Shown: one piece after another, positions 59,275 through 63,300 of the stretch
Layout: every line of letters starts with the position of its first letter
Position numbering within the stretch: position 1 is the stretch's first letter
DNA from: an uncultured Ruminococcus sp.
GTDB lineage: Bacteria; Bacillota; Clostridia; Oscillospirales; Ruminococcaceae
Direction: 5' to 3'
Length of the DNA stretch: 64,000 bases
Assembly (NCBI GenBank): GCA_947627275.1
Contig: CANQVK010000004.1
Location: forward strand, 1-64,000
The notes under the pieces: generated by a model
Databases searched by the model: none
Seen by the model: the letters and a program-made list of their open reading frames with translations, nothing else
Told to the model about the DNA's origin: nothing
Translations under genes and position numbers: made by a program

Positions 59275-59314
59275 ATAAATCATACGATTTCGAGTTTTAT
59301 TTGAGGTGTTTATA

Positions 59315-59725
59315 ATGGATCTTTTTTCTATATTCAAGGGCGGCAAATATTTTGACAAGCATATCGCTCCAAAATGCGACTATTGTCAGTTCGGCAGACG
59401 CGCTAAGGACGGCAACAAAGTTCTGTGCGAAAAAAGGGGACTTGTAAACTGCAACGATTCCTGCGGCAAGTTTATCTACTCTCCTCTTAAGCGTATCCCC
59501 GTAAAACAGTTGAATTTTGTTGGAAGTCTTGCGGACGAGGATATTTACATAGAATCAGCCGGCGACCGCGCTGAAAAAGAAGAACAGGAAAAGCCGGCTG
59601 AAAAAGCCGCTGCAAATAAAGAAGCTGCTCCCAAGGAGAATGAAGCTGCCGAGCCAAAAGCTGAGGAAACTCCCGATACTTCGAAAACTGCTTCGTCTGA
59701 TACTGCCGACGATTCAGCCGAATAA
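59315..59725 (+). CDS. Small cysteine-cluster protein with acidic tail
   Basis: The 136-residue protein has a probable zinc site formed by four cysteines in CDYCQFG, VLCEKRG and CNDSCGKF (residues about 21-50). From residue about 85 it is a low-complexity Ala/Glu/Lys/Pro tail. The family resembles small conserved clostridial proteins of unknown function. GAGGTG precedes the ATG at 59315. Confidence 0.65.
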   Translation: MDLFSIFKGGKYFDKHIAPKCDYCQFGRRAKDGNKVLCEKRGLVNCNDSCGKFIYSPLKRIPVKQLNFVGSLADEDIYIESAGDRAEKEEQEKPAEKAAANKEAAPKENEAAEPKAEETPDTSKTASSDTADDSAE

Positions 59726-59790: not shown

Positions 59791-59956
59791 TTAAGGCAGC
59801 CTCTAAAAACCTCTTTTGGCAAAAATCAGCTATGCACGGCATATGCTGAGTCAAGTGCCCGCGGAGGGTGACGGCCAGCTTTCGGACACTTTCCTTGCCG
59901 CTGTCGAACTTATCTGATTTTTGCTTGATCAAATAGGTTTTTAGAGGTTGCCTTAA
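59791..59956. mobile_element. MITE-like hairpin element, copy 3
   Basis: This 166-bp copy starts TTAAGGCAGCCTCTAAAAAC and ends with TTTTTAGAGGTTGCCTTAA. Inner arms CAAAAATCAG and CTGATTTTTG match the other copies. The centre shares GGACACTTTCCTTGCCGCTG-like sequence with copy 2. It is flanked by TTAA on both sides. Confidence 0.75.
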
Positions 59957-60009
59957 AGTGTTCTGTTAGGTTCTGTTTTATTACTGACTGTACTGAAAAG
60001 GAGAAATTA

Positions 60010-60258
60010 ATGACTTCATTCAAAACCTTGGGTTTCGGTAAGACAATGGAAGATAAGCTCCACTCAGTCGATATTCATTCCGCTGAAGAATTAATCAATA
60101 TCGGCAGTAAACAAGCAGCATTCCGTCTTAAAGTCAAATATCCGAATACTTGCGTTGTTATTCTTTATTACCTTGAAGCCGCTATTCGCGGCGTTGATAT
60201 AAAACAATTGGATAATGCTTGTAAATCAGAATTAAAGGAATACTTTAAACAAATATAA
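60010..60258 (+). CDS. TfoX C-terminal domain protein
   Basis: The 82-residue protein is a stand-alone TfoX/Sxy C-terminal domain (LGFGKTMEDKLHSVDIHSAEELINIGSKQAAFRLK and LEAAIRGVDI), which has a helix-hairpin-helix-like fold. TfoX regulates competence in gamma-proteobacteria, but isolated domains in Firmicutes are of unknown role. AAAAGGAG precedes the ATG. It lies between the hairpin element and the tRNA-half array and may belong to the same accessory set. Confidence 0.8.
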   Translation: MTSFKTLGFGKTMEDKLHSVDIHSAEELINIGSKQAAFRLKVKYPNTCVVILYYLEAAIRGVDIKQLDNACKSELKEYFKQI

Positions 60259-60266
60259 AAAATCAT

Positions 60267-60304
60267 TCGCTTGTGTTGAAATTGGCAGACACATTGGAAT
60301 TTGC
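60267..60304 (+). repeat. tRNA-Leu 5'-half remnant A
   Basis: CGCTTGTGTTGAAATTGGCA and GACAC match the tRNA-Leu at 62144 with few changes through the D arm; the anticodon arm is altered (ATTGGAATTTGCG). It ends at GAGG, which is the ribosome site of the GrpB-like gene. Confidence 0.6.
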
Positions 60305-60316
60305 GAGGTCATAAGA

Positions 60317-60883
60317 GTGGGAAAAGAATTATTGCAGATGTCGTTAGATGAATTGTGGGATCTATTCCCAATAGCTCTTGTTGCCCATAATGATAAATGG
60401 AAATTGCTTTACGCCGAAATCGAAACAGAGCTAAAAAGCATTTTATCCGGCTGCCGGATCGAAAGGATCAGCCATATCGGAAGTACGGCTATATCGGGAA
60501 TATGGGCAAAGGATATTGTCGATGTGCTTATTGAGGTGTCAAAAGAATCCGACATTGAGGATACCGCAAGGACGATCGAAAATAACGGATTTATCCGAAT
60601 GTCTGCGGCAGCGGACAGAATATCTTTTAACCGTGGATATACGACAAAGGGATTTGCTGACAAGGTTTTTCATGTTCATGTTCGCTACGTTGGAGATAAT
60701 GATGAGTTGTATTTCAGAGATTACCTAAATGAACACGAAGAAATTGCTAAAGAATATGAGACTATGAAATTACAATTGTGGAAACAATTTGAATATGACA
60801 GGGACGCTTACACAAATTCCAAGACAGAGTTCGTTAAGAAATGGACTTCTGAAGCAAGGAAAGTTTATAATGGAAGGTACTGA
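60317..60883 (+). CDS. GrpB-family nucleotidyltransferase-like protein
   Basis: The 188-residue protein belongs to the GrpB/YqkA family, nucleotidyltransferase-fold proteins with the motif RISHIGSTAISGIWAKDIVDVLIEV near residues 49-74, whose active-site Gly-Ser and Asp residues are present. Function is unknown. The GTG start has GAGG 8 bases upstream, right at the end of half-tRNA A. It is a cassette-like gene. Confidence 0.88.
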   Translation: MGKELLQMSLDELWDLFPIALVAHNDKWKLLYAEIETELKSILSGCRIERISHIGSTAISGIWAKDIVDVLIEVSKESDIEDTARTIENNGFIRMSAAADRISFNRGYTTKGFADKVFHVHVRYVGDNDELYFRDYLNEHEEIAKEYETMKLQLWKQFEYDRDAYTNSKTEFVKKWTSEARKVYNGRY

Positions 60884-60934
60884 CCTTTCTTAAAATCTGC
60901 TGTGCAGATAAAATCCAGACAGAAAATTTAATAT

Positions 60935-60978
60935 GCGCCTGTGGTGAAATTGGCAGACACGCAAGATTTCGTTTGCGT
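60935..60978 (+). repeat. tRNA-Leu 5'-half remnant B
   Basis: From 60935 to 60969 it matches the tRNA-Leu at 62144 with one change (C to T in the D loop). It then departs from the tRNA but keeps a hairpin: ACGCAA (60959-60964) with TTGCGT (60973-60978), replacing the normal anticodon stem partner. Confidence 0.75.
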
Positions 60979-61000
60979 TACGATATTGGAGGTAAATATT

Positions 61001-61441
61001 ATGGATAATAACTTGATTAGTACTGGTAACTGTGGCGAATATTTTGTGGCTGCTGAGTTGGAACGTCGTGGGTTTACTGTCGCTGTACCAATGTCAAATG
61101 TAGAAAATTTCGATATTTTAGCTATAAATCGCTCAACACATAAACAAATTGCTGTGCAGGTAAAAACGACAAAAGACCAAAAAAAGGAGTGGGTACTTAA
61201 TAAAAAATGTGAAGAATTTTTTGGTGACAACATTTTTTATGTGTTTGTTGCACTACGAGGTTTAAATAATCCTGAATTTCATATTGTCCCAAGTCAAACT
61301 ATTGCAGAAACAGTTGCACTTGCCCATAAAACCTGGTTATCCACTCCAGGAAGAAATGGTGTTGCACATAAAGATAATCCTGTTAGAAAATTTGAGGATA
61401 CAGAAAATAAATACCTTGATAATTGGCAAATACTCTATTAA
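61001..61441 (+). CDS. PD-(D/E)XK nuclease-like protein
   Basis: The 146-residue protein has the restriction-endonuclease-like order GEYFVAAELERRGFTVAVP, then NFDILAIN (metal-binding Asp near residue 38), then IAVQVKTTK (QxK near residue 53). These residues match small PD-(D/E)XK enzymes of unknown role, some in mobile elements. GGAGG precedes the ATG. It may be a nuclease or a decayed relative; no methylase is adjacent. Confidence 0.72.
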   Translation: MDNNLISTGNCGEYFVAAELERRGFTVAVPMSNVENFDILAINRSTHKQIAVQVKTTKDQKKEWVLNKKCEEFFGDNIFYVFVALRGLNNPEFHIVPSQTIAETVALAHKTWLSTPGRNGVAHKDNPVRKFEDTENKYLDNWQILY

Positions 61442-61477
61442 TAAGTTGGCGTTCAAATCGACAGCAAAATTTAATAT

Positions 61478-61521
61478 GCGCCTGTGGTGAAATTGGCAGA
61501 CACGCAAGATTTAGGTTGCGT
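61478..61521 (+). repeat. tRNA-Leu 5'-half remnant C
   Basis: It matches the tRNA-Leu through the anticodon loop (GCAAGATTTAGGTT) with one change, then switches to GCGTTAC. ACGCAA (61502-61507) pairs with TTGCGT (61516-61521). Including the preceding AATTTAATAT, 45 bases are identical to remnant B. Confidence 0.8.
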
Positions 61522-61578
61522 TACTACAGTGAAAAGTACAATTGTAGCAAATCGGAATTTGTAGAGGAGATAGTAAAT

Positions 61579-62079
61579 ATGTTTTTGAGAAATTATAAAA
61601 AAGAAGATTCAGCAATAATCTATAAATGGCTCAGAACTGAAGAAGAATTATACAAATGGTCGGCTGACAGATTTAATAAATTTCCACTTTTTGAAGATGA
61701 CATTGACAATAGCTATACTCCACAGATTGAAACCGGAAGATTTATTCCACTTACAGCGATAGATGAGGAGGAAAATTTATTAGGTCATTTTATAATTCGA
61801 TATCCAAGAGAAGATGATGACTCTACTGTTCGATTTGGATTTGTTATATTGAATCCTGCTTTACGAGGCAAAGGCTACGGAAAGAGACTCTTGCATCTTG
61901 GAATAGAGTATGTTAAAGACAATTTAAGTGCGAAACGAATTGATTTAGGTGTATTTTCAAACAATGATAATGCAAGATTTTGTTACGAATCGGTTGGATT
62001 TAGAGAGTACAGTAGGCGAAAATGTGAGATGCCAATAGGTGTATGGGAATGTATTGATATGGAGTTATTTATAACATAA
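61579..62079 (+). CDS. GNAT-family N-acetyltransferase (RimJ/RimL-like)
   Basis: The 166-residue protein has the acetyl-CoA motif NPALRGKGYGKRLLHLGIEY near residues 95-114 and SNNDNARFCYESVGF near 138-152, typical of ribosomal-protein or small-molecule GNAT enzymes. AGAGGAGA precedes the ATG at 61579. It is the third cassette gene. Substrate unknown. Confidence 0.88.
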   Translation: MFLRNYKKEDSAIIYKWLRTEEELYKWSADRFNKFPLFEDDIDNSYTPQIETGRFIPLTAIDEEENLLGHFIIRYPREDDDSTVRFGFVILNPALRGKGYGKRLLHLGIEYVKDNLSAKRIDLGVFSNNDNARFCYESVGFREYSRRKCEMPIGVWECIDMELFIT

Positions 62080-62143
62080 AAGAACAAACGAATACGAGGA
62101 ATTTCACAGTTTATCGCATAAGTAAAAAAGGAAAATTAAATAT

Positions 62144-62228
62144 GCGCCTGTGGTGAAACTGGCAGACACGCAAGATTTAGGTTCTTGTGCCGAGAGGCAT
62201 GCAGGTTCGATTCCTGTCAGGCGCACCA
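62144..62228 (+). tRNA. tRNA-Leu (anticodon UAG)
   Basis: The 85-base gene has a 7-bp acceptor stem (GCGCCTG with CAGGCGC), a D arm, an anticodon stem CAAGA/TCTTG around TTTAGGT, a long variable arm (TGCC/GGCA) and a T arm (TTCGATT loop). The discriminator is A and the CCA end is encoded. It is the only complete copy in the array. Confidence 0.95.
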
Positions 62229-62400: not shown

Positions 62401-63054
62401 ATGAATAAAAATGACTACATTATCCGTTTGGAGACAGAGAAAGACTATCGTGCGGTTGAAAATCTTGCCCGTGAAGCGTTTTGGAATTTAAGCGTTCCCG
62501 GCTGCGATGAGCATTACTTTATCCATGTGATGCGAAAGCATAAGGACTTTATCCCCGAGCTTGCTCACGTCATTGAAAAAGACGGCAGAATTATCGGCTG
62601 TGTAATGTACACGAAAGCCAAACTTGCAGACGAAAACGGCAATATAAAGCCGATCGTCACTATGGGACCGCTTTGTATTCACCCTGATTTTCAGCGTATG
62701 GGATACGGTAAGGTTCTCCTTGAACACACCTTTGAAATTGTAAAGAAAATGGGATATGACGTTGTTATCAATTTTGGCAATCCCGACAATTACGTTGCTC
62801 GCGGCTACAAAAGCTGCAAAAAGTACAACGTCTGTTTCGAGGGCGATGTTTTCCCTGCCGCTTTGCTTGTGAAAGCCCTCAGCGACGACGCTCTCGACGG
62901 CAGAAAATGGTTCTATCACCCCAGTAACGCCGATGAACCGTGTGGAGATACTGAAGCTGTTGCGGAATTTGACAAACTCTTTCCACCCAAAGCAAAGGCA
63001 TGGCAGTCCAGTCAGGAAGAATTTTACATTCACTCCCATTCAGTTATCAGATAA
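62401..63054 (+). CDS. GNAT-family N-acetyltransferase
   Basis: The 217-residue protein has GPLCIHPDFQRMGYGKVLLEH near residues 87-107 (acetyl-CoA site) and VINFGNPDNYVARGYKSCKKY near 120-140, as in YhbS-like acetyltransferases. AGGAGG precedes the ATG at 62401. It follows the tRNA-Leu, outside the half-tRNA array, and carries its own attenuator-like leader, which could mean induction by a drug or metabolite. Confidence 0.88.
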   Translation: MNKNDYIIRLETEKDYRAVENLAREAFWNLSVPGCDEHYFIHVMRKHKDFIPELAHVIEKDGRIIGCVMYTKAKLADENGNIKPIVTMGPLCIHPDFQRMGYGKVLLEHTFEIVKKMGYDVVINFGNPDNYVARGYKSCKKYNVCFEGDVFPAALLVKALSDDALDGRKWFYHPSNADEPCGDTEAVAEFDKLFPPKAKAWQSSQEEFYIHSHSVIR

Positions 63055-63104: not shown

Positions 63105-63300
63105 TTATACGGTTTCCTTTTCAATACATACCGCCGAGCTATCCTCAAAATCCTCATTAAATTCAAATTTCACATCAAGGCTCTTATCCTCATTCTGGTG
63201 CACATAAATCTGTCTGACAAGCATATTTTCAAGTTTGTGTCGCTGATTTTACTTTCTGAAAGGATTTCTTCAAGCAACTCCGTTGTGCTTCAGATTATCA
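63105..63300 (-). pseudogene. C-terminal remnant of a serine recombinase
   Basis: On the minus strand the frame ending at 63105 reads LVRQIYVHQNEDKSLDVKFEF and FNEDFEDSS, the usual tail of large serine recombinases. Upstream, another frame continues with ELLEEILSESKISD, so there is at least one frameshift, and a stop lies further on. The rest of the gene is missing. The family call rests on resemblance to typical tails. Confidence 0.5.

Follow-up and report, generated by a model that had tools for sequence, protein, structure and literature searches.

The window, by which we mean the whole 64-kb stretch of Ruminococcus DNA analysed, contains a single tRNA gene recognized by ARAGORN, a tRNA-Leu(TAG) at 62144-62228, and this one complete tRNA-Leu(UAG) closes a series of copies of its own 5' half, just as the original prediction had it. 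A search for GCGCCTGTGGTGAAATTGGC with up to 3 mismatches located 60267 (3 mismatches), 60935 (0), 61478 (0) and 62144 (1) in the window, with 0 matches in 100 shuffles and no further copy elsewhere in the window's own genome. The features of the array and its flanks are the following (LSR, large serine recombinase).

59306..59725, + strand: left chromosomal neighbour of the tRNA-Leu(TAG) gene; no Pfam match, homologue at most genus loci searched
60010..60258, + strand: gene with a TfoX_C domain (Pfam); homologue in the L090 array, a broken one in L127
60267..60302, + strand: half A, eroded tRNA-Leu 5' half without P' arm; 3 mismatches, comparison with G073
60317..60883, + strand: GrpB-family gene, unit 1; PF04229, 1e-44, same gene in the G073 and G129 arrays
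60935..60969, + strand: half B, tRNA-Leu 5' half up to the predicted crossover (attL); the G073 homology block stops at 60969
60970..60989, + strand: P' arm of half B, predicted serine-recombinase half-site; inverted repeat of the P arms at 12 attR sites
61001..61441, + strand: PD-(D/E)XK-like gene, unit 2; PF11645, 2.9e-5, below the curated cut-off
61478..61512, + strand: half C, tRNA-Leu 5' half up to the predicted crossover (attL); GCGCCTGTGGTGAAATTGGC match with 0 mismatches, half+arm alignment
61513..61532, + strand: P' arm of half C; inverted repeat of the P arms at attR sites
61579..62079, + strand: GNAT gene, unit 3; PF00583, 1.2e-12
62144..62228, + strand: complete tRNA-Leu(UAG), current predicted attB; ARAGORN, predicted crossover after 62178, 3' half 62179-62228
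62401..63054, + strand: GNAT2, right neighbour (Pfam); present too in array-free G058 and in G073
63120..63224, - strand: relic of an LSR C-terminus, convergent with the tRNA; tblastn 63%, 4e-8

Halves B and C, reported earlier as identical over 45 bases, are indeed identical, over a stretch of 47 bases that consists of AAAATTTAATAT and 35 nt of tRNA ending in ..GATTT in the middle of the anticodon loop, after which they continue as CGTTTGCGTTACG and AGGTTGCGTTACT. Both are 5' halves of tRNA-Leu(UAG) fused to a conserved arm of about 20 bp, and the predicted stop in the anticodon arm followed by TTGCG describes them well; half A is degenerate and has no P' arm. The 'TTGCG' after half A belongs to the GrpB leader, since in the relative G073 this leader reads likewise (AAATTTGCGAGGTTATAAGAGTG / AAATTTGCGAGG) and lies 3' of a separate arm. 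The placement of three genes each behind a tRNA-Leu 5' half is clear for B and C, half A being eroded, and among the gene types proposed GrpB and GNAT agree with Pfam, the PD-(D/E)XK match being weak.

The TfoX_C gene at 60010-60258 probably represents a further, older unit that has lost its 5' half, because its homologues sit in the L090 array and, broken, in L127. To its left, a stretch of about 165 bp (59793-59958) flanked by an inverted repeat (AAGGCAGCCTCTAAAAACC.. / ..GGTTTTTAGAGGTTGCCTT) was spotted by eye and looks like a small insertion element. Just past the window (L125 7879-13449, or G000:C4 at about 69.9-75.4 kb), conjugation-like ORFs seen by eye, including a coupling-protein-like ORF of 689 aa, are perhaps another integrated element near the array.

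Occupied and empty sites

A homologue of the 59306-59725 gene flanks tRNA-Leu(TAG) at most of the genus loci searched, and the arrays therefore lie at one chromosomal place. In G058 a gene of this type, the tRNA and GNAT2 are present and the array is absent in the 3 kb seen, and in G073 the GrpB unit, the tRNA and GNAT2 are contiguous. Homology between the window and G073 breaks at 60969 and resumes at 62139, the surplus of the window being 1,209 bp between 5' half and 3' half, that is, the PD-(D/E)XK and GNAT units. The comparison of strains proposed at the outset thus yielded a genome without exactly two units and with the break at the predicted crossover; on sequence grounds a gain in the window and a loss in G073 would fit this difference alike.

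Distribution of the half+arm layout

The half+arm site was found in eight named genome contigs, all eight from Ruminococcus and including R. flavefaciens Y1 and YRD2003. A sequence-only model built from an alignment of 50 half+arm sites matches 119 of the 125 genus genomes, a figure that is not an array count because intact tRNAs account for the matches that end at model position 49. In the family sample (396 genomes) matches reaching position 60 or beyond occur in at least 14 other genera, and the 20 loci retrieved for such matches, from 10 of those genera, all bear half+arm sites; the search of related genomes for a half followed by non-tRNA sequence has thus shown the layout to recur in Ruminococcus and 10 further genera. 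Outside the family, the class sample (391 genomes) gave no match to position 60 or beyond at E 1e-11, its matches ending at position 53 or before, i.e., tRNA-like. The layout is also present at tRNA-Leu(CAG). The genome set holds one genome per species, many of them draft, and some arrays stop at contig ends; contigs end inside arrays in G014 (C26 and C27), L053, L066 and L090, and some arrays are therefore probably longer than the assemblies show.

The recombinase and its predicted attachment site

Adjoining the terminal tRNA is the gene of an LSR of about 525 aa with Resolvase, Recombinase and zinc-ribbon domains, for all of which P0001, P0002 and P0003 exceed the cut-offs, and with a TnpX domain as best PDB match. 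In all 30 cases measured, a non-random sample in that many loci were retrieved for their arrays, the gene is situated 3' of the terminal tRNA-Leu(TAG/CAG) in convergent orientation, the distance being between 45 bp and 4.3 kb, with one additional copy 8.0 kb away; seven further hits, whose loci carry no tRNA-Leu(TAG/CAG), stand outside the 30. The LSR occurs in 35 of the 125 genus genomes at E 1e-60, and 4,632 of the 8,000 proteins scored are relatives at E 1e-100. A tree of 23 LSRs, 10 linked to tRNA-Leu(TAG) and 13 to tRNA-Leu(CAG), separates the two groups by one change with a support of 100/100, and 0 of 500 shuffles did as well; the LSR relic of the window has its nearest relatives in the TAG clade. 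No LSR match was obtained in 50,697 phage records at E 1e-60 and a single one (48.5% identity) in 72,556 plasmid records, the half+arm site giving just two matches, with a coverage of 32-34%, in plasmids. A search of viral contigs gave 0 exact matches.

At 12 opposite junctions (attR), a partner P arm is joined to a displaced tRNA 3' half; ten of them were found via the 3' half alone, and L112 and L122 were found first via the arm pattern, their 3' halves being recovered by BLAST as well. The P arm is an inverted repeat of the P' arm (0.535 vs 0.261, sd 0.048, for permuted columns, 0/10000), with the signal limited to offset 0, and the central dinucleotide between the arms, which is T33 plus base 34, reads TT in UAG genes and TC in CAG genes. 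Judged from these alignments, the arm is half of a near-palindromic LSR attachment site with its predicted crossover at T33-N34 in the anticodon loop. At three of the 12 attR sites (L071, L112, L122) another LSR follows within 250 bp of the displaced half: here one element lies within the tRNA of an earlier element. For G003, G007 and G020, whose tRNA-Leu(TAG) loci have an LSR, a search of more than 20 kb of downstream sequence gave no displaced 3' half, and G022, with its LSR fragment, gave none either. One decayed 3'-half remnant without P arm was seen in L137 (5936).

Elements that carry their own tRNA

Two elements could be read end to end, one of 16.5 kb at tRNA-Leu(CAG) in the window's genome and one of 12.8 kb at tRNA-Leu(TAG) in G051. 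Their order is 5' half and P' arm, left arm, complete tRNA, LSR, other genes, P arm and 3' half. Both split the host tRNA, whose halves lie at opposite element ends so that it is rebuilt at neither junction, and the complete tRNA that each brings as a replacement is of another allele. The two outer halves in G051 match at 7/7 and 5/5 positions, and the 5' half of the inner tRNA fits the displaced 3' half at just 4/7 and 3/5. The displaced 3' half pairs 12/12 with an array half in eight of nine genomes, and the complete tRNA fits it worse in G000, G014, G051 and G105, the outer half alone fitting it in the last of these. In G020, G041 and G074 pairing does not discriminate, in G003 the complete tRNA was left unscored, and G012 leans against the model, its displaced 3' half fitting the resident tRNA 12/12 and the attL/array half 11/12.

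These observations bear on the original prediction in two ways. Insertion into the anticodon loop, with a 5' half left behind and one whole tRNA kept, is supported by the comparison of G073 with the window and by the attL and attR sites. The proposal that every cassette brings a 5' half that rebuilds the tRNA with the resident 3' half is not supported: four of the nine genomes that have a displaced 3' half received a whole tRNA of another allele, and in these same four, including the window's genome at tRNA-Leu(CAG), the old tRNA 3' half lies 13-21 kb from its 5' half.

More generally, all 77 complete tRNAs pair with themselves 12/12, and of the 105 upstream halves, 89 remain once 16 eroded ones are set aside, of which 24, from 19 loci, disagree with the resident 3' half in at least two positions; by this difference complete tRNAs seem to arrive whole. 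Another idea drawn from it, that units insert at the tRNA 5' end, was dropped in view of the displaced 3' halves and their P arms. Local duplication of a tRNA-containing block followed by decay is a highly improbable origin of the arrays: near-identical neighbouring units in L074, L107 and L108 indicate that duplication adds copies, but units differ in genes and in tRNA alleles, with which the contrary case named at the outset, one segmental duplication of the whole block, does not fit, and these differences, together with the displaced 3' halves that match array halves at 13-21 kb, contradict local duplication as a general account.

The relaxase PF03432 was confirmed in L042, L057 and L071, with MobC in L042. 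The cargo of the window-genome element includes AbiE, type I methylase and specificity subunits and an OLD-like protein. In L048 (7515-8624), L061 (10462-11838) and L149 (3885-10568), genes lie between the tRNA and the LSR or behind the LSR, and the cargo of those elements (reverse transcriptase, HEPN protein, AbiE, type I methylase/specificity, OLD-like) is defence-like.

Units and cargo

Neighbouring sites enclose 108 intervals, of which 65 measure up to 170 bp without a counted gene, 33 measure 171-1500 bp and 10 are longer. The prediction that the genes run in the direction of the tRNA agrees with all 32 counted ORFs in intervals up to 1500 bp; in the longer intervals 7 ORFs run with the tRNA and 34 against it. 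The long intervals observed at tRNA-Leu(CAG) (L070, L072, L073, L075, L076, L077, L101, L103 and L118), of 3.4-6.8 kb (10 kb in G003) and with genes mostly antiparallel to the tRNA, are unlike the short units at tRNA-Leu(TAG).

Among 33 small-unit proteins (two repeats excluded, the near-copies of L050 and L053 both in, and two ORFs from a 1516-bp interval in), Pfam recognizes GNAT (3), GrpB, transglutaminase, DUF4357 and GIY-YIG (2 each) and single cases such as rhomboid and TfoX_C, and PADLOC recognizes PDC-S14, PDC-S57 and DUF3780 (2 each). A 343-bp unit is near-identical in two genomes and the sites on either side of it differ. An erosion comparison of array halves along the loci (10 / 13 / 4) revealed no clear gradient. 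Some array halves, from differing genomes and tRNA-Leu genes, have a hairpin-like extra insert in the D-arm region (L093 8252, L104 oriented 9863, L107 oriented 343), which is CGAACAAGTTCG in L093 and L104.

Genes often begin directly after the arm and run with the tRNA, as they would if half and arm formed a cis-acting RNA leader regulating each gene. We give this reading very little weight, since the RNAalifold consensus is weak (-1.22 kcal/mol, two-sided change in 1/9 pairs), most intervals are gene-less and the arm is accounted for as an attachment half-site. The least likely of the explanations weighed is a true integron or other tyrosine-recombinase platform at the tRNA: one-gene units, one direction and GNAT-type cargo recall it, but a motif scan of the array flanks returned one implausible tyrosine-recombinase ORF and many serine recombinases, and the seven PF00589 matches in the window's genome are all on contigs other than the array's.

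A probable stack of insertion scars

In these gut and rumen bacteria, mobile elements appear to cut tRNA-Leu in the anticodon loop and to bring a replacement copy that is cut next. We consider it very probable that the array is a stack of insertion scars left by integrative elements with a TnpX-like LSR, a reading that draws on the att architecture, the position of the LSR, the other-allele tRNA of the elements, the succession of attR and LSR and the pair of occupied and empty sites, all of them read from the sequences. The LSR tree, the pairing of the tRNA halves and the LSR relic of the window speak for it as well. The LSR would recombine an attP, made of P arm, TT or TC and P' arm, with the anticodon loop of tRNA-Leu, splitting the tRNA into a 5' half with P' arm at the left end (attL) and a P arm with 3' half at the right end (attR). 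A complete tRNA-Leu of the same isotype, inside the left end of the element and upstream of the LSR gene, would keep the cell alive and would be the target of the next element, because of which scars and left-arm cargo would stack, 5' halves and the genes between P' arm and tRNA accumulating before one working tRNA with which this cargo may be expressed. Element bodies would later be lost, e.g., between two copies of the tRNA 3' half, the left arm staying, so that the units of the window may have outlived their LSR.

Three observations at the window and in its genome go against the stack of scars: no element body is left between the tRNA and GNAT2, the LSR relic lies beyond GNAT2, an ancestral neighbour, and not between the tRNA and GNAT2, and no relaxase was found among the 10 ORFs of the window-genome element. 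The displaced 3' halves missed in G003, G007, G020 and G022 and the pairing results of G012 and G105 weigh against it as well. Given the lack of a body between tRNA and GNAT2, either bodies were lost later or single units move. In the latter case a unit of P' arm, gene, leader and 5' half would circularise and insert alone in the manner of an integron cassette, with the LSR provided in trans by the large elements, which would be only the source of the enzyme. Such free cassettes seem unlikely to us, even though the window has precisely two units that G073 lacks, next to the same right neighbour and without an element body, the 343-bp unit recurs between differing sites, 65 of 108 intervals are gene-less units of up to 170 bp, and the Tn4451-type recombinase is said, in the part of the source drawn on here, to integrate and excise without a directionality factor (PMC5704250). 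On the other side, complete tRNAs are always self-consistent and many upstream halves are foreign alleles, which is unexpected under unit-wise exchange of 5' halves; whole elements with the predicted ends exist; and neither a cassette circle nor a mobile single unit was found in viral and plasmid collections. We prefer the later loss of bodies to the movement of single units, because it works without a hypothetical circle and because left arms with genes are followed by full-length LSRs in L057, L072, L100 and L118.

The insertion idea of the original prediction was thus right in its outcome, and independently moving cassettes would be an unlikely rival; the units make better sense as left-arm cargo of serine-recombinase elements than as free cassettes. 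In its fullest form the rival would be a serine-recombinase counterpart of the integron: the LSR would also join attL-type sites (5' half and P' arm) with the tRNA, single units would move and be shuffled among species, their expression tied to that of an essential tRNA, and the element tRNA would be a self-renewing site that the host cannot lose; we regard this as unlikely.

Relation to known systems

No description of the layout of tRNA halves and one-gene units, or of a substitute tRNA that is the next target with stacking scars and cargo, was found in open-licence PMC text. If the steps proposed for the stack of insertion scars hold, the element gives a tRNA gene a double role, as an addiction module and as a landing site that renews itself: the element tRNA could not be dropped by the host, the next element would land there, and the genes from scar to tRNA would be trapped on a transcribed unit. 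By this simple route, arrays of single genes could form with no need of an integron integrase. The system would also provide recombinases that choose their target according to the tRNA-Leu isoacceptor, and would account for the turnover of tRNA-Leu alleles seen in Ruminococcus.

Integron cassette arrays are runs of single-gene units, all in one orientation, at a fixed site in the chromosome. The present arrays share these traits; unlike integrons, they have no IntI found at the array, and their site is a tRNA half with a serine-recombinase arm. SCC elements with Ccr recombinases likewise combine a large serine recombinase, one target and composites; we know of no tRNA replacement in SCC, and P0001 scores at most 80 bits against Ccr cut-offs of 700-900. 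The Tn4451/TnpX IMEs resemble our elements in an LSR with Resolvase, Recombinase and Zn-ribbon and, in some elements, a MobA-type relaxase and MobC, whereas the internal tRNA site and the replacement tRNA set the present elements apart. In the part of the source drawn on here, tRNA-targeting IMEs have tyrosine integrases and use 3' ends, and serine IMEs lie in dispensable genes (PMC5704250). The same part of the source describes accretion of CIMEs, ICEs and IMEs, a tandem pile-up at one att site in which decayed members retain their att sites (PMC5704250). Our arrays share both traits with accretion; there, as far as that part goes, accretion makes use of the attR of an element at the gene end, whereas here it would take place inside the tRNA brought by the previous element.

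The destruction of a tRNA together with the supply of a substitute has been published for actinobacteriophages with tyrosine integrases as tRNA-dependent lysogeny, according to the portion of that work considered here (PMC10865867). Phages and a tyrosine integrase act there, whereas the present elements have a serine recombinase and, in three of them, a relaxase, and the tRNA at the left end of the element would here be the next target, with scars that stack. If this is true, tRNA-dependent integration extends from tyrosine-integrase phages to serine-recombinase elements, and the system described here is like tRNA-dependent lysogeny, with a serine recombinase and a target that would renew itself.
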